Assembly (NCBI GenBank): GCA_009602725.1
Contig: WELB01000031.1
Span: 597,712 to 622,562, forward strand
Length of the DNA stretch: 24,851 nt
Source of the DNA: Spirogloea muscicola
Lineage: Eukaryota; Streptophyta; Zygnematophyceae; Spirogloeales; Spirogloeaceae
Direction: 5' to 3'
Both the position numbers and the translations under genes were made by a program. Position 1 is the stretch's first letter, and each line of letters starts with the position of its first letter. Under the pieces are notes generated by a model, which was given only the letters and a program-made list of their open reading frames with translations, made no database searches and was not told the origin of the DNA. Positions 8,079 to 23,950 of the stretch are shown piece by piece.

Positions 8079-11000
8079 TCAGGCCGATGCTGCCTGCTCG
8101 AGTCTAGCAGTGGCCAAGTCATCGCGTAGGTGTGCAAGCATGGCGGCCGGGTCCTCTCTGATCAACCAGTGGCCCCCTGCAGCTCAAAGAACAAGGGGAC
8201 ATGGTGAGGACTAGGTTGTGGAAGTCGTCAGCACGCTGCTCGTTTGCAAAGAGCAGTGCCAACAGCACCTTAAAGGCAGAGCTCACTGCCCATAATAGCA
8301 CCTAAAAGGCAGCTCACTTCCATGCTATGCATCGGCCCAATGGAGGACACTTGCTTAAGCAGGCATGCAAACTCGTTCTGAAGGACTCTGGCTGATGCCG
8401 CTCACAGGGAGCAGGCAGATCTGGCAAGTAATGGCAGGTAGTTGCCAAGTCAGGGATGAGGACCTTGGAACCAGTGCTCTGAGAAATCTGCACAGGTGCT
8501 GTGCTTCCAAGCTGAAATCTGCACAGTAATTTTGAACCTCTGTCATGCTACGCCTTGCTCATGCAAACGCATATCCTTGACAAGGAGTGCCGTTGAATGT
8601 TGCAAGAGCAACCAATAAGAGAGCGATGCAAGAAAGCAGAGTCAATGAAAGAAGAGGCACAGAAGCTGCCATGGCTGTCTTTTTCTGCCTGCGTCAGTGT
8701 CTGCGACAAACAAGGGCATGTATCAATTACCTGGTCTCTAGTGTATCTCGTGTCAGCATCCGCAGCGAGCGCGTCGACTGGGATGGCGAGTGGAGCAAGG
8801 GTTGGCTCGTACATCTCCAGCACTGGCACAGAATCGGCGAAGCACAAGATGCTGTCAGATGTAGGAGCTGTTAAACATGTGCAGTTGGTCCAGTGCTGGC
8901 AGAAGCCTCCTGTTATGATGCTATGTGTCCAAGCCTAAACATCTCATTGAACCAAGACTGGATAGGCTGGCAAATCTAACATCGAAAGTCGGCCTTCAGG
9001 AGAGGCAGAGCATGTTCACGTGCCGCCTCAGTCTGCACAGACAGGGCCACCAAAGGGGGGCCATCGAAAAAGAGCAAGATGTGCGCAGCATGCTATAAGC
9101 TCCAGCCACCATGCAGATGGTGTGTCAGAATGTTCCTCAGTGTGAGCTACATTCAAGGTGGACAACAGATATCTTGGATAAAACCTCAGAAGCTTCAGGT
9201 ATAATTGAGCGCAAAGCCAAAGAAGACAAGGTGAGCCGTGTAGGTTGCATCTTTTTGCTTCATGGGCGAAGTCAGGGCGCGTGCTCGACACGACTGCTGC
9301 TTGCGGACCTGGAGGGATGTTACAGAGCCATAGCGACGGAAGAAGCACCGCCAGAACTCGACCAGGGGGAGGTCGGCGAATGATGTGGGGTCTACGTCGT
9401 GCGCAACGTCCGCCAAATGTGGGGCCCTGTTGTACCCACCAGAGGCAGCGAGATGAGTTGCAGCTAGCACACTGCTGCCACTGGTAAATACACTCGTCAA
9501 ACAGCTGACCTATGTATAACAAGAAACCTATCTATAACAAGAATGCTTGTTGAGCACATGTATGGGTGGTACACGAAGTTGACTGTGCCTAGATCACTGC
9601 AAGCTCTGCTATACTAAGAGGGAGCATAGTGGGTGTTGTAGCACATCTGGCATTTGGATAAGAGCAAGCCCAAGTGCAGATTTCACATTGGTAGCAGGAG
9701 ACACGCTAGGATACAGCAATTGACCATTATCATTACCGACGTACTAAGTCATTAAGGTCCTCTATGTGACAAGACAGTGGTACGATGACTATGATACAGT
9801 GACTTGTGACAAGCTATCTACGGCTTGCTCAGGGACCGGAGTAGCATGTCAACTACGTCACTTGAGTGTCCGGACCCAGCACCCAGCAGGTCAAGCAGTC
9901 TGAGAGCACTACAGACAATAAAGGCTGACCGGTTGCATGACGCGTAGAGCTTGACCGGCATCGGGCAGGAGCCTGCTGCCATTGCTGGTGCTGCCGAGCC
10001 TGCTTCGTCCACGACTGATGAGGGCCCTCGCGCAGAGCCTGCAGAATCACTTATGTGCAGCCGTTGGATCTCGTGGGCAACTTCATACGCAATCCAGGCG
10101 CCCATGCTGTGGCCGAACAGAGCAAAGGGCTGCAGAAGGGATGAGCGTGAGGGCCTGCGAGCACGGCCCCGCCTGCTCGTGAGCTCTGAGTCTGACCCCG
10201 AGACCCCGACATACAGACCCCTTAGTCCAATACCTTGAGGACCTTTTAGCTACCAAGGTCAATTTCAAAACAGGTCAATACACGCACGGAAATATAGCCC
10301 CTGCACCACAGATCTTGCAAGGTTTCCAGCATAGCAGGGCGAGCTTGCGAGGAACCTAGGCACGGTGCCTCAAGCAACACAGCGCGACCAAATGATGAAG
10401 TCTGTTGAGGGAGAGAAGACTCGACTTCTGAAGGTCTCAGAAGGCCAACCTCAATTATGAAACCTAGTCTTCCTACGTAGTGATACTCTGAACCCAGTAG
10501 ACTAAACCTGACGGTTAGCCCTGGACCCCGGATGCTGCGCTCACCTTGTCAAGCAGCAGGGGGAGGAGGCCGGCGAGGCACGCTGTGACCAGGAGCCGCA
10601 GCGACGGCGGCTGCGGCTCCCCGAGCCGCGCGCCGCGGCCGGGGAGTTCCACGGGCATCACCTGACGACCAGCCAGCCAGCGGCAGCGTCCTTTCAGGCC
10701 CGCCATGGCTCGGCGGAGCTCGAGTCGTTTAGGTTTCAACTTTTGGGACTTGGGTTGTGGGTTTTGGGATTTGGATGTAGATAATCACAGGGCAAGGTGC
10801 GGCAATCAATCCATTCAGGACTTGGATTTTGTATGTAGGAAAGCACAGGACAGGGTAAGGCACCTCGACGTCGGGCGCCAGCTCCGCGGCCCACCGGTGG
10901 TACACCCACGCGCCGGTGGCCGCCTGCGGCGAGCCCAGCTCAGCGGCACCCCGTTAGCAACAGCTGAGTGTACATGTGGCAACGTGCTTGCCACTGTGCT

Positions 11001-14389: not shown

Positions 14390-14670
14390 GTCTTTTCATG
14401 TAGCCACATTCTTTGCGCTGCATTCTTTGCACTTTCTGCATTTTCTGCCTGAACAATGTAATGGCTTGAATTGGCCTCGCTTTAATTTCATGCGCACCGC
14501 GCGCCTTCTCTCTCTCTCGCAGAAGTTACAAAGAGTATCTTCGTCTTCATTTGCACCTTCCGGTTCTTACGGACCTTGTCTGCTTCCTGTGGGCTGGCCT
14601 TTCACTGCCTTCGCCCCTCCGGAAGAGCTTACCTTTTCTGGGCTGGCCTCTCACGGCCATCGCCTAAGAG
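14390..14670 (+). repeat. Dispersed repeat family copies
   Basis: 14466-14520 (GGCTTGAATTGGCCTC to GCGCGCCTTCTCTCTCT) has close relatives at about 22440-22510 (minus) and 24126-24172 (plus). Two copies of the second motif lie at 14588-14626 and 14634-14668 (GGGCTGGCCTTTCACTGCC and TTTCTGGGCTGGCCTCTCAC). The internal order suggests fragments of a non-autonomous mobile element. Confidence 0.65.
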
Positions 14671-15284
14671 CTATCACTTCTTCTTATGCTGTGAAGCAGA
14701 GCACCCCTAGCACTCCATTCTGAAAGTCCGTCATGTCAACCGCACGTTATGGCGGCGCGCCTGTAGCACTGAGGGACCAACGTGTGCCTGACTAGCAGTA
14801 GCCACCCACTGCCATCCCGCCGTCCTCCACTCGGCCAAGTTTTTGATGGTCAACATCGTTCTTGAATGCATGTGCATGCTCAACGTGATACTAGTCCTAC
14901 TCGTTGTGCAGAATAGGTGCCTCCCCCAATGAGCAGAGAGAAAGGTCGTCGGCAAGCTTAAACAGCATGCCGACACTTGGTGATGTACAGCACACAGTAT
15001 GATTGATTATTGCCAATCATTTCACCCTCGGGAAAGTTTACACCGAAGGCTCACCGACATAAACTTGCTGTACTCCACTGCAGCTTCAGTTCGTCAGATC
15101 ACAGCACAGCTTCACTGTGAGCACAAGCACCGAGTCACAGGACCGCCGCCGCAGCGCCGCGCTGCCACTGGCCATCGACCAGGGCCGCGCCCATGGCGGC
15201 CGCCGCCTCAGATTGCAGGCTGGTCAGCTGAGCAGACCCACGTAGAAATCTGCAGCGGAGGTGGCAATAGCGGCGGCGGCCGCT

Positions 15285-18200
15285 ATGGCGGGGCTCGCCG
15301 CAGTGGCGACGGCGGCGGCGGCGGCGGCGGCGGCGGCAGGCGACCAGAGCTGCAGCGCGCGCACTATGGGCCTCTCTGCAGGACGACTGCCTGCGGCACT
15401 GACTCCCGCGATTGCTTATGGCAATGCCGCCACGGCAATGGCGCGGCGGCCGGTCGCCCATGCTGCGGTCTCCGGCGGTGGCGACGGCCGGTGAGCTCGC
15501 AGCCAGAGCCAGCAGCCAGTCGGCCATGCGGCAGCAGCTGTAAGCCGAGTCACGCAGCTTGTACTGCTCTCCATTGCCAATGGGGTTTTGGGTTCGGTGA
15601 GTGGCGCAGGCAGGCCGAGCCAGGACGCGACGCCGGCGACGCGACCTCGACGCTGCCGCCTGTGGAGGCCGGGTGCGGGCCTCCTGCTTGGCCTTGCTTG
15701 AGCTTCTAGGAGCTCACAGCAGCTACCAGAACATTGTTGCTCACTGGCATCCTGCATTGCTGCCAAGGCGTCTGTCTGGTGGCTGACGACTACCCTATGT
15801 ATATTCTGTTTGTGGCCTGCAAATGGTATGGCAGGGCGGTCGATGGCAAGCTCGCATCTGACGCGCCCACGATGGTAAGCAAGCGCTTGCTTTTGCTGTG
15901 CTCTGGCTGAGCTAATTTCCTATGCCTGACGTAGACAAGACTGTTTGCTTACCAAGATCCTCGCAGCTCCAACTCTGAAGTCGAAGTTGGTGGGGTTTTG
16001 GCGGCTCTGTTGCTCAAGCAGGCTGTGTCAAAGCAGGAGCTGGCGACAGCAGGCTCTGGTGACATGATGAAGCTCTTCAACGACGCGCAGCAGAGTGAGC
16101 AGACGCCCCTAATCAAGGTCGGCAGTTGCCAACTTGCGGCGAGTGCAGAATTTTGGCCCGCCGTAACTTCGTCTTCAAGAAGCTCTTGTCATGATCTCCA
16201 TCAGTGAAGAGCTTGGGCTTCTGGAGATTGGGTCCTGGACTTAGCTCCAGGACCCAATCTCCAGAATGGCCTTAGCATTATTTCTCTTGCTGAAGCTCAC
16301 AAACGCATTGTCATGCGGATCATTTGGAGTTGTCTGGTTGTCCAAGCTCTGGAGTCTAGGATTGTTACTTAAGCAAGCCTGAATCTTTGAGAATGCCATG
16401 ATGATGTTCTGGCACATGTTGTCTGCATGTACTACTGTCCTGCTATCTCCTACCCTCGGCGCTCATTGTCTTCATCACTGCTTGGAGCTTGGCTATGGCA
16501 GACATGCTGTTCCTCAATAAGCAGCGGCTGGTGGCTGTGGAGGAGCTGCAGCGCGCCGACCGGGACCGCAAGCTCCTCCTGGCGCGCATCGGGCAGCTGG
16601 AGGCGGAGACAGCCGCCAATGCTGCGCAGAAGGAGCTACTGCAGCAGCGCTTGCGCCACCTCGAGACGTCACTCGGCATCGCCGAGAGCCGCGGTAAGAC
16701 GTGGACAGGAGTGACTCGTTGGCCAGATTGGCCACGTCAATAGTGGTCTCTGAGCCACTGTGGCAGTAAGCTGCAACTAACATCGATCTATGACAATGTG
16801 TCCTAGACCTAACGAACCTGGAGTACAAAGTCGCCAAGTCCCGGATGAGATGGAAAAAGATAGTGTGGATTTGCAAATAATCGATACATTTTGAGGCAAA
16901 CGAAGCAATAGATTGCAGGCATCAAGCTGACATTATGCTGATTTGATACAGTGTCCTCATCTCTTACAAATGGCAGGCGGTGCCCTCTTCCGCAGTGGCC
17001 TCGCGCGGAGCTGGAAGCACAAGCCAGACCCACCACCCATCTGGAGCTCGTTGCTGCTGCGCGTCGACTCGTTGCTGCTGACGGGCGCCCTCGCTGGGCA
17101 CCAGGCCGACGGCCTCCGCCAGCTAGCGCGGGTGCGCGACGTCCAGGTGGCCGAGACGTATGCGGAGTTGGTGGACTGCGAAGACCACCAGCTGGCCGCA
17201 GGGCTCATCTCGCTGCTGGATCACAACAAAAGGTAACTTGCTCCACTGCGCAAAGAGCTGCCGTCCTATATCCTGCATTCAGCTTAGACACGGTATGTAA
17301 CAAGCATTGTCAAGCACAACTTCAAGTTCAAGTCAGCAGTGTGATGGCAAGCAACTGCTGGACACTTCAGACACAGAGATGCATATCAGCCTCAAAGGAG
17401 CCCATAGCAGCAGTCGTCAGAGGCAGCAGTCTCTTGGCAGTGGCGCTGATGAGGCAGCTTCTGGTCTGAAGCAGGCGAGGCCTGCACGTGGTGCACGTGG
17501 CGACGGAGCTTGCGCCGATTGCGCAGGCGGGGTCGCTGGGCAAGTTTGTCACAGGCCTCAGCCGCGCGCTGCGCAAGAAGGGCCACCTAGTGGAGGTCAT
17601 CGTGCCCAAGTATGGCAACCTGGACATGACCTTCCTGGAAGGTGCCCAGCAGATCTCGCAGGAGATTTACTCGTACTTCGATGGCGAGTGGGTGAAGAAC
17701 CGCCTCTGGACTGGGTGAGCATGCTCCGTTGCCCAGCTTTGTGGCACCTCGGCTAGCACTAGACCAACAAGTGCCAAGAGGCAACCACCTTGCATCATAT
17801 GCAGATATGGTCTTTGAAATCCCTTTCACTGATTACCAGTTGAATGAGAACCCCTTTATGGTCAGCTGGGCGTGACACGGCCAAGGCTGCAAAGCTGCTT
17901 AGAAGGTGGTTAGCTTTGTATTTAAGTAGCTGGTCATATGCCGCCACTCATGCAGCCTCTGACTGCACCTTCACAAAGACGATTAGCAAGCTGCTGGTTG
18001 AGCGGGCTGCTGCGGCTGCTGGTTGGGCTGCAGTACGGTGTACGGCCTGCCCGTCACGCTCATCGAGCCTGTGCATGAGCGGGGGTTCTTCAATCGCGAG
18101 CACATGTATGGCTACGAAGATGACTTTGAGAGGTGAATCCACCTGAGATATGTCCCTTTGTGGAGCGGTTCCAAAATTCCTGACATTGTCTAGTTGACGC

Positions 18201-21200
18201 ACTGCTTTCTTGTTCTGCACACCCAGTTGCGCATTGCTTGCTCTGGCCACGATGGCCATTCAGCAGCGTACATCCCAAGATTGAGAGTGTGTCATGCTTG
18301 AGCAGTGCTCGAGGTGCTTGCGAATGTGTGAGGTAGTATGCACCGTAATCTGACGTTGAAGTGTAGTCTGGAAGGGCAACTTGACCAACCACTAGACAAG
18401 TTGGTCAAGGGACTCACACGACAGTCCTTGTGCCAGAGGCTTCTCCTGCCAGATGCCTCAAACCTCTGCAATTTTTTGAAGGCTTGTTGGTCATGTTGCA
18501 GGTTTTCATACTTCAGCCGGGCTGCATTGGAGTACCTCCTGAAGCTCAGAAAGCACCCGGACATCATCCACCTTCACGACTGGCAGACTGCTTCTGCTGC
18601 GCCGCTGTTCTGGGACATCTATGCAAACTTGGTGAGCCCAGCAGGACGATAGGACGCAGAGATGACATGCTGTGCACTTCTCCCCAGCCTCCTCCTTGAT
18701 TCCTGCCACAATGCACTACAGAGATAGTAACAGCAGACTTCACGGTGGGACTGGTCATGTACTTCTTTCTTGAGCCTTCCTGGCATATCGCACGTTGGTG
18801 CACCTTACCTGCCTGGCTCTAGCAGAATTTGCAGGCCAATCTGCTCATCAAAGCGACAACTGGGACCTGGTATCTGACCTTGGATGGCAATATTGCACAC
18901 AGGGCCTTGGAGAAGCGCGGATCATGCTGACATGTCACAACTTCAAGTATCAGGTCAGGAATTGACCTCATCGTTGGACTTGTGCTTTCTCATTATAGCA
19001 CCTCTATGTGCCATTCTGATAGAAATTACACAGACGCATTCATCCATTGGAGGATGATTGGCTGATTGCTGAGCATCATTTGGAAATTCTAAATTGATTC
19101 ACGCCTGACATTTGGTCCATTGCGCTTGTTCTTTTGCTCATAAGAGCACGCAACCTAGCGAGAAGTTGGCGCTCGTTGGGCTGGACCCATTTGCTCTGAA
19201 CAGGCCGGACCGCTTTCAGGACAATCAAGATCCCTCCAAAGTCAACATTCTCAAGGTGGGTTGTACATGCAGCCCGCTGTAGCAACAACGGCAACATCTC
19301 TGCGATTGCCACTTCTAACTTGGTGTCAGCTCTACTGCAGGGTGGGATCGTGTACTCCAACAAGGTGACTACAGTCAGCCCCCTGTATGCCAGTGATTTG
19401 ATTGCAGGCGTCAATGCTCATGGCCTTGAGTCGACACTCGCTTCACACAGGTCTGACTTTCTCAGTCCAGCTACACACGAATTCCTTCACATATTTATAG
19501 TACCTCTTCTGCTTGGCTGACGATGCTGGCCTTCTCATCTACAGCCCACACGAATTGTTGCAATCTGAAAGTATCTGCATCTTGACATCTCATATGACTG
19601 TACCGACAGGCACAAATTTGTTGGCCTCCCCTCCACATTCGATGAAGACCAGTGGAATCCTGGGAGGGACGCCGCACTTCCCATGGCAATCTCCGCTGAG
19701 GTGGGAGCAGTCCGGGTTGCTGTATGCCGAGCCAGGCTCAGACTTAAATGCAACTACGAAATGCTCATGTTTACACATGACATCTAATAGAGGGCTTTTT
19801 AGATTGTGGCAAGGTGCTGTTGAGACATTTGCTGGTTGATATTGTGAAGCAGATAATGGGTTCTGAGATTTTCTGTACCCTTATTTGTCAATGATGTACT
19901 GTCAGGATCCGTCTGGGAAGGCTGCTTCCAAGGCGGAGCTACGGCAGCAGCTTGGCCTCCCACGTATTGATGCCAGCGGAGTTGACCGACCGCTGGTACA
20001 AAGCTTGGGCTTGCACTGCATAACTTTTGGAGAATACTGCTTGTGGTACTTAGACGACCATGTGCTTGTTGCTGCATGTTCAGTCATCGCAGAAGGTCGA
20101 TGACCTCAATGATGCACGCAGCTCACAATCATCAGCGACATCATCCTGTCATGCCATGCACATGCATATGCACTTGCTGATCGCCGTCACAACAATCTTC
20201 AGAATGCCTGTCACCTTCAACACGAGCCCTGTCTAAGTTAGGTGACCTTAGTGCACTCCTGGCTGCTGCGTCAGAACATCTGCTCCAGATCATTTGCAAA
20301 GGTTTGGCAGATGAAAGCTTATATTACAATTTGCTGCCTGCAATTGCAGGTTGGCTGTATCGCGCCTCAGGTGTCTGAGGCTGAAATTGATATGATAAGA
20401 GAGGCTCTTCAAAGCTCGCTACAATGTGAAGCACAGGTGAGAGGGAGGTCTGCGAGCCTGCATCTGCTACTGAGTTCGCAAAACGAGCACTGCTTGACAC
20501 CCTGCACAATAAGCTGAAGTCCCTTGTACTCATGTTGTGCTTTCCTCGTGTACCAGTTTGTTTTTCTCGGCGCTAGCAAGTTCCCGAGAGTGCAAGTTGA
20601 GCTGGAGGACTTGAAGCGCGAGGAAAAGGTGCAGTGGCCATGTCCTCCTCTTTACCCTGGGGCCTTGCGGAGGTCTATGTAACACGTTAGGAGCATGCAG
20701 GACAGGATTTGCGATTTGACTAGTCTAAGTGTAGCATGTATCCTGTGAATTTGTGCTTTGCTGTGCTAATGTTGTCAGCCATTCTCCAGATGCGTCTCTT
20801 TGAAATCGCACAGTGAACCCTGCTGCTCTGGTTCTCCAGGACGAACACGCCGCCACTGTGATCCAGTACACGGACGCCCTCGCCCACCTGGTTCTGGCTG
20901 CTTCCGACGTCCTCGTCTGCCCCGCCGTCCGTGACCCATCTGAGGAGATGCCAGTGAGCTGCCACAACAGAAGCTGCCCCATGACTTTGCTGGATCTCAA
21001 CGCTAAAGAGTAGTCATTAGATGCTGAAAGGTGAGGCCAGCGTATCCAGCTGTGTAATTAGTTGTTGACACCTCGTCATCACCTGATGATTATATATCTC
21101 AAAGGCACCCACCTTTGATTGTGGCTGCGCAGCTTCTTGGTCTAAGATATGGAGCCATACCAGTGGCAAGGCAGCAAGGTGGCACCATGGACAGGTGAGG

Positions 21201-21925
21201 TGCAACTTCCCATGCTGATCAATCGCCTCAAGCTCAAGCGTTCCAACTTTTGCAGGTTCGCCAAGATGGCGTGTGTCAGATGGCGGCAGTATCTCGCCGC
21301 CATCTAGCCTGCAGCAGAGCTGTGACCTCATGAAGTGGAAGTCAGAAGACCTTGCCTTTCATTGGTCCCCAAGTATTCTAGACTGCTGAGAGACTATGTG
21401 TACCCCACATCTTGGCGCCAATCTTGCCATTCTATCTGGTTACGAAAACCTTGGTTTGCCTGTATCCAGCATTGTTGATGTCGATGATCCCACCCAGCCC
21501 CGCTCCAAGGTCAACGGCTTCCCATTCTACTCCGTGGAGCCCAAGGACATGTGTGCCGCGCTGCAACGAGCTCTTGAGTGTTATGTGCGCTTCTTTCTGC
21601 CTAAACCTGCACGAGACCCCTATATCCAGTTGGTCATTGTGACCTTGACACAGGATCTGGCACAATGGCCTCCATGATGCATGCCATGCTTGCATGCCAC
21701 CTTCTACGCAATGGCTATTGCATAATACTTCAATTATGAGGCCTTTTTGACCTTAACCTGAACCCAATTCGTGAATGTGACCATGAGCTGCTTCCGTTCA
21801 TGCAGAACCAGGACCCCGAGGGTTGGGCCGCTTTGGTGGTCAATGCCATGTCCACAGACACGTCTTGGGATGCGCGGTGCTGCGATGCATACGTGGAGGC
21901 CTACTGGTCGATCCGCAATGGGTGA
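15285..21925 (+). CDS. Starch synthase IV-like protein, probable pseudoenzyme
   Basis: A GT5-family starch synthase by overall sequence, closest in remembered features to plant SS4. Well-supported exons: 16502-16693, 16807-16864, 16996-17232, 17475-17714, 18034-18132, 18502-18631, 18903-18953, 19145-19255, 19341-19450, 19610-19700, 19906-19995, 20350-20436, 20557-20628, 20840-20953, 21133-21194, 21470-21584 and 21806-21925 (TGA). A tentative 5' chain (15285-15490, 15610-15672, 15730-15874, 15935-16058) keeps phase and would make 838 residues. It starts with an Ala/Arg-rich stretch like a plastid transit peptide. A coiled-coil segment (NKQRLVAVEELQRADRD) and the SS4-like linker (PPPIWSSLLLRVDSLLL) precede the GT5 domain. 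Conserved: HVATELAP, KKGHLVEVIVPKYG, HLHDWQTA, TCHNFKYQ, LNRPDRFQD, YSNKVTTVSP and LRYGAIPVAR. Changed: KxGGLGD is QAGSLGK; NGID is STFD; TRLxxQKG is APQVSEAE; FEPCGL is RDPSEEM; the Lys and Leu of KTGGL are replaced (QQGGT). Catalysis is therefore unlikely. A scaffold or regulatory role, as for plant SS5, is an inference. Confidence 0.88.
15307..15337. repeat. (CGG)n trinucleotide run
   Basis: A run of about ten CGG units encodes poly-Ala in the proposed first exon of the starch synthase. Length variation here would change the putative transit peptide without a frameshift. Confidence 0.9.
16221..16264. repeat. Perfect 19-bp inverted repeat (hairpin)
   Basis: 16221-16239 (CTGGAGATTGGGTCCTGGA) is followed by a 6-base loop (CTTAGC) and its exact complement at 16246-16264. 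It lies in the predicted intron before the coiled-coil exon of the starch synthase. The stem has no mismatch, which is unlikely by chance. It may be a small foldback element or an RNA structure. Confidence 0.95.
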
Positions 21926-22403
21926 TGGAGCAGCAGTCTCGCCAAAGCCCCTCCCACTCCATGCAGTGCCGCTGAAGCTACACCTTCATCCTGCTCCTGA
22001 CCATACCGTGACTCTCACAACAAACAGTTACCGGGTGCTGTCTTACCAGCAGGGTTGCAGCCTGTGAGCTCCAGTCCCTAATTCCGCCACACCTTGCTAG
22101 ACAAGGAACCCAGCTCGGCGTGTTCGCCGAGCTGAGGCGCCAGCCAGCGCAGCTAGCCGCCGGCTGGCCTGCTGGGACTGCTAACACGGCAACGTGGGTC
22201 CCACAGCCGCACGTGTTTATGCACACTTATCAGCACGGCTTCGGGCCTTGCTGAGCAGCCTTTGCTTGGTAATGGCGAGCGCGACAGTCGGCTTTCGAGC
22301 ACAGGTCGAACTTATCTAAGAGTGTCACGCAGCGAGGGCTGCTGGGCTCGTCCGGAGCAAAGCCACCAATGCTGACCGGTCCTCTGCTCTGCCTGAGGCC
22401 TCT

Positions 22404-22560
22404 TCCAGCCGGTTTCCTGGGCTGGCCTATCACAGCCATCGCCCTCTACTGGAAGAGAGAGAAGGCGCGCAGAGCACATGGCATGAAAGGGAGGCCAATT
22501 CAAGCCAACGCATCGGTCAGGCAGAATCTAGTGCAGGATTAGCAAGGCTACATGAAACGG
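22404..22560. repeat. Dispersed repeat family copy (composite)
   Basis: 22411-22455 carries the core on the plus strand (TTTCCTGGGCTGGCCTATCA, CACAGCCATCGCCCTCTACT). Immediately after it, 22455-22560 carries the other segment on the minus strand (reverse complement of GGCTTGAATTGGCCTC). The two modules occur in the opposite relative orientation at 14390-14670, so they rearrange or are independent repeats. Confidence 0.65.
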
Positions 22561-22983
22561 AGCCCTATGCTAAGGTGTCTGAGGTATCAGTGTGACATTA
22601 GTACCCACAGGTGAGCACATACAAACCCGATAAGCTAACTTTGGGGAGCCGGACCGCCGCCATGGAAGCCGGCGGCCTGACTTAGAGCGCGCCCTGCACA
22701 CTGATAGATAGCCAGAACTTGCGAGTACTGCAAACTAAGCGAAAGCTGCATTTATCACATGCAACACCTAATGCCTGCGGAATGCTAGTGTGGCTCAAGC
22801 TGCCCCCCCAACTTCGTCGACGCGCGTCAACTAGTCGGGCCAGATACTGGATGAGGGAGGACCATTCCATGTCATAGCCACTGTAAATAACCATAGCGCA
22901 AGTGGTCTCCTCGGGGGTGGTCCTTGCAGTGCTAAGGGGAGAAAGATCAACCCCGCGCTGCGCAAGCCAGAATAAGAGAAGAC

Positions 22984-23028
22984 GCTTCCAGGAGAGGGCA
23001 GTGGCTGTGAGAGGCCAGCCCAGAAAGC
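22984..23028 (-). repeat. Dispersed repeat core, minus strand
   Basis: The reverse complement reads TTTCTGGGCTGGCCTCTCAC followed by AGCCACTGCCCTCTCCTGGAAG. This is the closest match to the cores at 11322, 14634 and 22411. Confidence 0.7.
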
Positions 23029-23349
23029 CAGAGGCTGATGCAAGGGCGCGACCGGCTCGGCGGTGCAACAAGCCAGCGCTTGGGACCTTAAGCAAGCGCT
23101 TAGATAGACGCATGCGGTAGCAGGACACAAGACCCAAAGGGCACCGAGCCTCCAAGAAGTGCTGCACCCTGTTTGCTGCGCAGTCTAAGCTAGAGGAACA
23201 GACGCACAGGCAGCAATGCGATATGTAGTGGTGAAAGCGCCAAGCTACAACAGAATCTGCTCACGGGCTGTGGCTACAAGGCTGCCGGTCCGCCACCCCC
23301 GCAGGTTAAGGTATCGCGCCAGCCCCCCCCCCCGCCGCTGCACGCTCAC

Positions 23350-23848
23350 ATTGCTCGGCTGCTTGCGGACGCAGGCCAGCCCCGCCACGCCATGGCGAGG
23401 ACGCCAGTCGCATGCCTTCTATTCTCCACTGTCCTGGCGGCCACGACCATGCGGGCTGCCGCCAGAGCCTCTACTACCGGCTCTGTCTTCTGTGACCGAG
23501 ACCTCAATGGCATCGTAGTGGCGAGGACGCCAGTCGCATGCCTTCTTTTGTTCACTGTCCTGGCGGCAACGACATGCGGGCTGCCGTCAGAGCCTCTGTC
23601 ACCGGCTCTGTCTTCTGTGACCGTGACCTCAATGTCATCACTTCTCATCATTGTCATCAATGTCAATGATTGATCACGGTCACAGTCAGGTCACGGTCAC
23701 AGAAGACAGAGCCGGTGACAGAGGCTCTGACGGCGGCCCGCATGTCGTTGCCGCCAGAACAGTGAACAAGAAAGGGAAGCCATGCGACTGGCGTCCTCGC
23801 CATGGCGTGGCGTTGGCTGGCCTGCGTCCGCAAGCAGCCGAGCAATGG
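23350..23848. repeat. Large imperfect inverted repeat with internal tandem duplication
   Basis: The left side is an outer segment 23350-23394 (ATTGCTCGGCTGCTTGCGGA onward) followed by two direct repeats, 23395-23509 and 23521-23634 (both GCGAGGACGCCAGTCGCATG to GACCTCAATG, period 126). After a spacer (23635-23688), the right arm 23689-23848 is the reverse complement of copy 2 followed by the outer segment. Copy 2 and the right arm are more alike than copy 1 and the right arm. The transcript would form a hairpin of about 160 bp. Confidence 0.88.
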
Positions 23849-23950
23849 CGGCGCGCAGCGGCGGGGTGGGGGGCCGTAGGGAGCTGGCGCGAGAGCGTGG
23901 CCTGCGGGTGCAGCGGACTGGCAGCCTTTGTGATGCTAGCGGCGCCTTGT

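Follow-up and report, generated by a model that had tools for sequence, protein, structure and literature searches.

A probable STARCH SYNTHASE 5 with a full-length but degenerate GT1-like half in the green alga Spirogloea muscicola

Introduction

Arabidopsis STARCH SYNTHASE 5 (SS5, also written SSV) was reportedly shown by Abt et al. in 2020 to be nonenzymatic and to act in granule initiation. It is described as a noncanonical starch synthase without enzymatic activity; its mutants have fewer granules, and MRC binds to it (PMC10801857). It is also counted among the granule initiation proteins for which a modulating effect on SS4 has been proposed (PMC11772324). Beyond Arabidopsis, potato SS5 is given as a protein of 76.5 kDa lacking both xxGGL motifs (PMC6013586), and maize SSV is listed as reading SCGPL, DD, D--, YG and FQDPS at the active-site motifs (PMC4653816). 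Among the species described there, the short form of SS5 belongs to Arabidopsis, and its annotation is doubted in one paper (PMC4653816, PMC6013586). In the literature that we searched, to which the supplements and trees of other papers did not belong, the only algal SS5 described is the SSV of Chlamydomonas reinhardtii (PMC4653816). Here we analyse a gene on a stretch of 24,851 nucleotides from the green alga Spirogloea muscicola (contig WELB01000031.1, positions 597,712 to 622,562), referred to throughout as the window, and we conclude from its sequence that this gene is very probably the SS5 orthologue of the alga: a probably non-catalytic protein with a presumed role in starch granule initiation.

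Exon structure

A scan of the 153 Mb assembly (471 contigs) with the PF08323 profile for the catalytic domain of starch synthases, which weak exons may escape, matched the window gene, two further copies of it (L001 at C218 and L002 at C92) and the canonical starch synthases. In each of the three copies, sixteen exons between 16502 and 21925 have GT-AG borders and make up one uninterrupted reading frame (645 codons). Spliced alignment with Arabidopsis SS4 (AtSS4; PDB 6gne) as the sole query returned the same 14 exons from 17475 onwards in each copy, setting the 5' border 2 bases before that of the exon chain and ending where the query ends; an earlier, preliminary description of this DNA had claimed that the exons from 17475 to the stop join in phase, and both lines of evidence agree with it. 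The gene extends upstream of 17475, however, with exons 16502-16693 and 16977-17232 joining in phase, and its start and N-terminus probably lie at 15366-15490 and 15967-16094, which would bring the whole protein to 730 amino acids. The exons are listed below; all of those from 17475 onwards are placed by phase and by spliced alignment.

15366-15490 (+): putative coding exon 1 with the start Met, rich in Ala, Arg and Ser and transit-peptide-like; in-frame Met and GTGAGC donor in all three copies, in phase with 15967
15967-16094 (+): putative coding exon 2, ending in NDAQQ|N; phase fits on both sides in two of three copies
16502-16693 (+): coding exon, coiled-coil-like helix with NMLFLNKQRLVAVEELQ, to which DILLLNRVRTRALEELD corresponds in the genome's own SS4; placed by phase and likeness to own SS4
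16977-17232 (+): coding exon, linker preceding GT5, 256 nt as in moss SSV; placed by phase and the exon table
17475-17714 (+): GT5 exon, 240 nt, equal to the moss 135 and 105 nt exons fused; QAGSL (17524-17538) replaces KVGGL
18034-18132 (+): GT5 exon, 99 nt
18502-18631 (+): GT5 exon, 130 nt; HDWQT and the surface-site Trp (18611-18613)
18903-18953 (+): GT5 exon, 51 nt; TCHN
19145-19255 (+): GT5 exon, 111 nt
19341-19450 (+): GT5 exon, 110 nt; YSNKVTTVSP and the surface-site aromatic Tyr (19353-19355)
19610-19700 (+): interdomain exon; LPSTFD replaces LNGID (Ser-Thr at 19632-19637)
19906-19995 (+): GT1-like exon
20350-20436 (+): GT1-like exon, 87 nt; APQVSEAE (20362-20385) replaces TRLVPQKG
20557-20628 (+): GT1-like exon, 72 nt, a length shared with potato SSV
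20840-20953 (+): GT1-like exon, 114 nt; RDPSEEM (20930-20950) replaces FEPCGLT
21133-21194 (+): GT1-like exon, 62 nt; RYGAIPVAR, and QQGGT (21172-21186) replaces KTGGL
21470-21584 (+): GT1-like exon, 115 nt
21806-21925 (+): final exon with the stop, 120 nt

The strongest test of SS5 family membership is the published table of SSV exon lengths (PMC4653816). Out of 15 lengths, those of the window gene match moss SSV in order at 11 (256, 99, 130, 51, 111, 110, 87, 114, 62, 115 and 120), soybean and potato SSV at 10 each and maize SSV at 7. The genome's own SS4 matches moss SSV at 3/15 (L003) and 2/15 (L004), as judged from automatic models of the GT part only, and shuffling the order of the window exons 10,000 times gave 9 matches at most. 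Moss SSV differs in three places: its 135 and 105 nt exons are fused in the window gene (240), its 172 nt exon is split with 9 more bases (91 + 90, against a range of 166-172 in SSV), and its 66 nt exon measures 72 nt here, as in potato SSV. SSIII and SSIV are reported to carry an intron between the K and the V of KVGGL (PMC2576272). The genome's own SS4 has this intron, whereas exon 17475-17714 spans the KxGGL site without one; the same holds for maize SSV by the sum of the lengths given in PMC4653816.

Two further stretches are conserved among the copies. The intron start at 20954-21040 is near-identical in all three, with few changes in ~75 bases compared with 11-15% across introns, and may be an alternative exon or a regulatory element. 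A 40-nt exon-like block at 15835-15874 has AG/GT borders in all three copies and may be a cassette exon; its inclusion disrupts the frame to the following exon.

Active site

The fold-level motifs named in the preliminary description (HDWQT, TCHN, YSNKVTTVSP and RYGAIPVAR) are all present, and so are the degenerate ones: QAGSL, APQVSEAE in place of the TRLxxQKG loop, RDPSEEM and QQGGT recur in the three genomic copies, but for two residues (in both L001 and L002, APQVSEAE ends in Asp and RDPSEEM reads HDPSEEM). For a closer comparison we took the contact residues of AtSSIV from PMC6086201, whose numbering equals the chain index used here plus 15. On a list of 32 active-site positions of our own choosing, which leaves out the contacts Ser395 and Tyr439 named in that paper, 18 differ from AtSS4 in all three copies and 14 are equal; the genome's own SS4 equals AtSS4 at 31 of the 32 in each of its two copies. 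Aligned to AtSS4, the window gene has Ala at the position of Ser395.

Every copy has Lys39 changed to Gln, Gly42 to Ser, Asp45 to Lys, Asn277 to Ser, Arg332 to Pro, Gln336 to Glu, Lys337 to Ala, Glu412 to Asp, Gly415 to Glu and Leu416 to Glu, and the intact ADP-glucose site of SS4 (K39, D45, R332, K337, E412) is thus absent, reading Q, K, P, A and D. Retained on the acceptor side are Glu33, Asp161, Trp162, Gln163, Tyr194 and the stacking Tyr of MYGYEDDF, and elsewhere His190, Asn191, Trp284 and Tyr390. Counted as side chains, on a small list that we sorted ourselves, 7/10 donor residues are replaced (Lys39, Asp45, Asn277, Arg332, Gln336, Lys337 and Glu412 are lost; His190, Tyr390 and Ile330 are kept) as against 0/6 acceptor residues. 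Having lost the charged residues that bind ADP-glucose and its phosphates, the protein should not transfer glucose. The kept acceptor residues, on the other hand, suggest that the cleft may still bind glucan, and a donor-dead, acceptor-intact state suggests a putative glucan-holding role. The surface glucan site of AtSSIV is likewise recognisable, with Trp172 as Trp and Phe237 as Tyr; its Trp also occurs in the genome's own SS4 and in C224, but not in two groups of canonical starch synthases of the same genome (group x, L005-L007; group y, L008-L010), in barley SSI or in two bacterial enzymes.

The losses resemble those of maize SSV, in which K15, RL, QKG and the N of NG are also lost and the E and C of FEPCGL have likewise become D and S, giving DPS.

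Selection

Between the copies, the ratio of nonsynonymous to synonymous substitution rates (dN/dS) is 0.058, 0.083 and 0.058 for the three pairs (Fisher p < 1e-20 in each); since these are copies within one genome and not species orthologues, the values describe constraint since the copies parted. The GT1-like half gave 0.064, 0.054 and 0.063, and the GT5 half 0.088, 0.153 and 0.085. Exons diverge by 3.3-3.4% with 0 gap columns in 1,940 aligned exon bases, compared with 10.7-15.1% and 86-165 gap columns in introns. Over the glucosyltransferase part, dN/dS is 0.076-0.095 for the window gene, 0.146 for the own SS4 (one pair) and, in the two groups, 0.147-0.220 (x) and 0.186-0.280 (y). The latter are rough controls: together with L012 they are all automatic models, with stop codons or poor joins in L007-L010 and L012, and the SS4 model L004 contains one misjoined stretch with a stop. 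The low dN/dS, the gap-free exons and the same degenerate motifs in three of three copies support the view, already put forward in the preliminary description, of a selected pseudoenzyme, and one that appears to be under tighter constraint than those canonical starch synthases of the genome for which dN/dS was measured.

Relationship to SS4

The SS4-like character proposed earlier was also borne out. Among PDB entries the protein matches AtSS4 best (E 3.8e-143, residues 149-639), followed by barley SSI at 2.2e-40, and plant SS4 being nearest by far in this search, we rejected a bacterial origin of the gene. A tree of 17 rows, none of them an SS5 from another species, groups the three copies with AtSS4 and the own SS4 (support 95/94). 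The own SS4 is 65% identical to AtSS4 and 44% to the window gene, which suggests that the window gene split from SS4 before the alga split from Arabidopsis, but fast change in a pseudoenzyme could mimic such an older split. A separate canonical SS4, which the preliminary description had proposed to look for, is found at two loci, C50 and C90. The window gene also has the N-terminal motif of this SS4: exon 16502-16693 resembles a segment of it, and the simple heptad score of the exon was equalled by 92 of 5000 shuffles. Among Pfam models GT5 scores 185.8 bits, and no GT1 model rises above its cut-off (best PF13692, 18.8 bits against 27), whereas the GT1 half of the own SS4 reaches 40.7 bits with PF00534 (cut-off 26.4).

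Genomic context

The DNA of the two other copies, gene and flanks together, is 86-87% identical to the window, with L001 aligning over 14857-23787 and L002 over 14667-22177. Since the alignment runs through gene and flanks, the copies are homologous chromosome segments, not dispersed duplicates. Several genes occur in triplicate as diverged copies (RbcS has four, SS4 two loci only), and dS between copies is 0.07-0.21 in the starch synthase sets measured. Diverged triplicates are what one would expect if the genome were triplicated or hybrid, and genome triplication has been reported for Spirogloea muscicola (PMC7994812). The RbcS read from L014 resembles that of land plants: it scores 198 bits with its best PDB chain (9pvb_M) and 170-189 bits with land-plant chains, compared with about 151-152 bits for the Chlamydomonas chains 1ir2 and 1gk8, in which the stretch matched exceeds that of the query by 7 residues. 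A chlorophyte origin was dropped on these scores, and the alga is probably a streptophyte. A search of the assembly for rbcL gave no match. No relatives of the window gene were confirmed in viral contigs.

Elsewhere in the window lie part of a PAF acetylhydrolase-like gene (516-806, +), part of a thioesterase-domain gene (9821-10249, -) and direct and inverted repeats at 23393-23928, which are common to the flank of the C218 copy. CBM48-type exons are present in the genome. In the canonical group B set, the automatic model of L007 (the C8 copy) has a stop codon at the Glu of FEPCGL and an N-terminal exon that looks broken; L005 (the C42 copy) reads FEPRGL and L006 (the C39 copy) FEPCGL. One copy of this set may be decaying, unlike the SS5 copies.

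Discussion

If the gene is SS5, as we think very probable, the alga would possess a protein of ~730 residues in which a coiled-coil-like helix and a linker precede a GT5 domain and a GT1-like domain that is degenerate but of full length. Its charged donor residues having been lost, it should transfer no glucose. At the sequence level the aligned fold, the listed acceptor residues and the surface site are retained, and the protein is preserved by selection. By extension from land-plant work, it would reside in the plastid and promote starch granule initiation without catalysis, through binding partner proteins as well as malto-oligosaccharide or nascent glucan, while the canonical SS4 beside it would do the elongation. 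The same granule-initiation role as in Arabidopsis is the most likely one for the algal protein.

A number of observations weigh against this identification. Its functional part is transferred from Arabidopsis, and the case for orthology is built on exon lengths and a single motif table from the literature. The window gene sits on a long branch (1.18), for which the tree program issued a long-branch warning, and its order relative to AtSS4 and the own SS4 is unsettled. Chlamydomonas SSV, the reported algal SSV (PMC4653816), has only 1/13 exon lengths in common with the window gene and falls outside both the SSIV and the SSV clades in the published tree (PMC4653816), so the name 'SSV' may cover more than one kind of protein in algae. 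One pair of copies gives a GT5-half dN/dS (0.153) no lower than that of the own SS4. Finally, L002 carries a 1-base deletion within putative exon 15967-16094, which reflects either a fault in the assembly or a disrupted N-terminus.

This deletion and the loss of the catalytic motifs are what a decaying SS4 pseudogene would offer, but we consider decay highly improbable and reject it: dN/dS is 0.06-0.08, where neutrality had been named in advance as a sign of decay, the 16 exons of the three copies (645 codons each) contain neither stop nor indel and have diverged far less than the gapped introns, and the GT part is more constrained than in the one own-SS4 pair. Strong constraint in both halves, with the acceptor residues, His190, Tyr390 and several Gly retained, might instead point to a glycosyltransferase that remains active by using a different donor or a novel active site. 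This, too, is very unlikely, given that both phosphate-binding side chains are replaced in all three copies (Arg332 by Pro, Lys337 by Ala), as are Lys39, Asp45, Asn277 and the Glu of FEPCGL (by Gln, Lys, Ser and Asp). Least credible of all is that alternative splicing restores an active enzyme, for which the conserved 40-nt block and the unusually conserved intron start at 20954 could be invoked. K.GGL, FEP.GL and.TGGL do not occur in any of the six reading frames of 15000-22400, nor in those of the corresponding regions in the two other copies, although intron-split motifs escape such a search, and the five QKG strings found in it all lie outside a GT context. The own SS4 splits KVGGL by its intron after the K, and its acceptor pattern, searched on the + strand, was found in both SS4 loci; between 17232 and 17475, ahead of the GT5 exon, there is no split acceptor of this kind and none yielding GGLG. 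Hidden exons restoring the motifs, whole or split at KxGGL, were thus rejected.

More serious, yet still unlikely, is the proposal of the preliminary description that the gene encodes a distinct alga-specific starch or pyrenoid scaffold other than SS5. In its favour are the DWQ and HN kept here and lost in maize SSV, the other exon structure and unsettled place of Chlamydomonas SSV, and a tree without SS5 of other species. Against it stand the land-plant SSV exon structure, the DPS change in common with maize and the kinship with SS4, and we saw nothing that links the window gene to the pyrenoid. Moreover, the contrast on which the proposal had leaned, namely that SS5 lacks most of the GT1 half, is mistaken, since a GT1-like half is reported for maize and potato SSV and the short form is that of Arabidopsis. 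With the exon structure, kinship and motif losses being those of SS5, a distinct scaffold is not needed: the data give no support to a kind apart from SS5, and the window gene very probably belongs to the known SS5 family.

For SS5 itself, one tentative scenario, which we hold to be possible though on balance doubtful, is that it began 'half-dead', with its nucleotide-sugar side destroyed and its acceptor groove and surface site under selection, as a malto-oligosaccharide clamp holding primers or presenting them to SS4. Maize-type lineages would have lost the groove later, and the alga would still have the protein in its older state.

Comparison with known starch synthases

Among catalytic relatives, the window gene resembles AtSS4 most (46.6% identity over 485 aligned residues) and has its surface glucan site, differing at the 18 listed active-site positions. 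It is also recognised over its whole length as GlgA, the ADP-glucose glycogen/starch synthase (TIGR02095, 386 bits, cut-off 328), but with NF001905 it scores 452 bits, below the cut-off of 560, where the own SS4 reaches 624; with donor-site residues missing, the GlgA family name is not to be read as activity.

The SSV proteins of maize and potato are reported to be nearest to SS4 (PMC4653816, PMC6013586), as is the window gene. Like maize SSV, it has a GT5 domain that domain programs recognise and a GT1-like half that they miss, and as in potato SS5 this half is degenerate, not missing. Arabidopsis SS5, by contrast, is reported as truncated, whereas the window gene is full length. Our results thus correct the idea that a missing GT1 half, reported for Arabidopsis, defines SS5. 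They also indicate that a green alga probably has a non-catalytic starch synthase of the SS5 type, in which the degenerate GT1 half is of full length and the exon structure is that of land plants, and that this protein is under tighter constraint than the active starch synthases for which dN/dS was measured alongside it. What may be new is the retention of the acceptor residues (E, DWQ and two Tyr) and of the surface site (W, and F as Y), compared with NWE in maize SSV, which also has QD where the window gene keeps HN.

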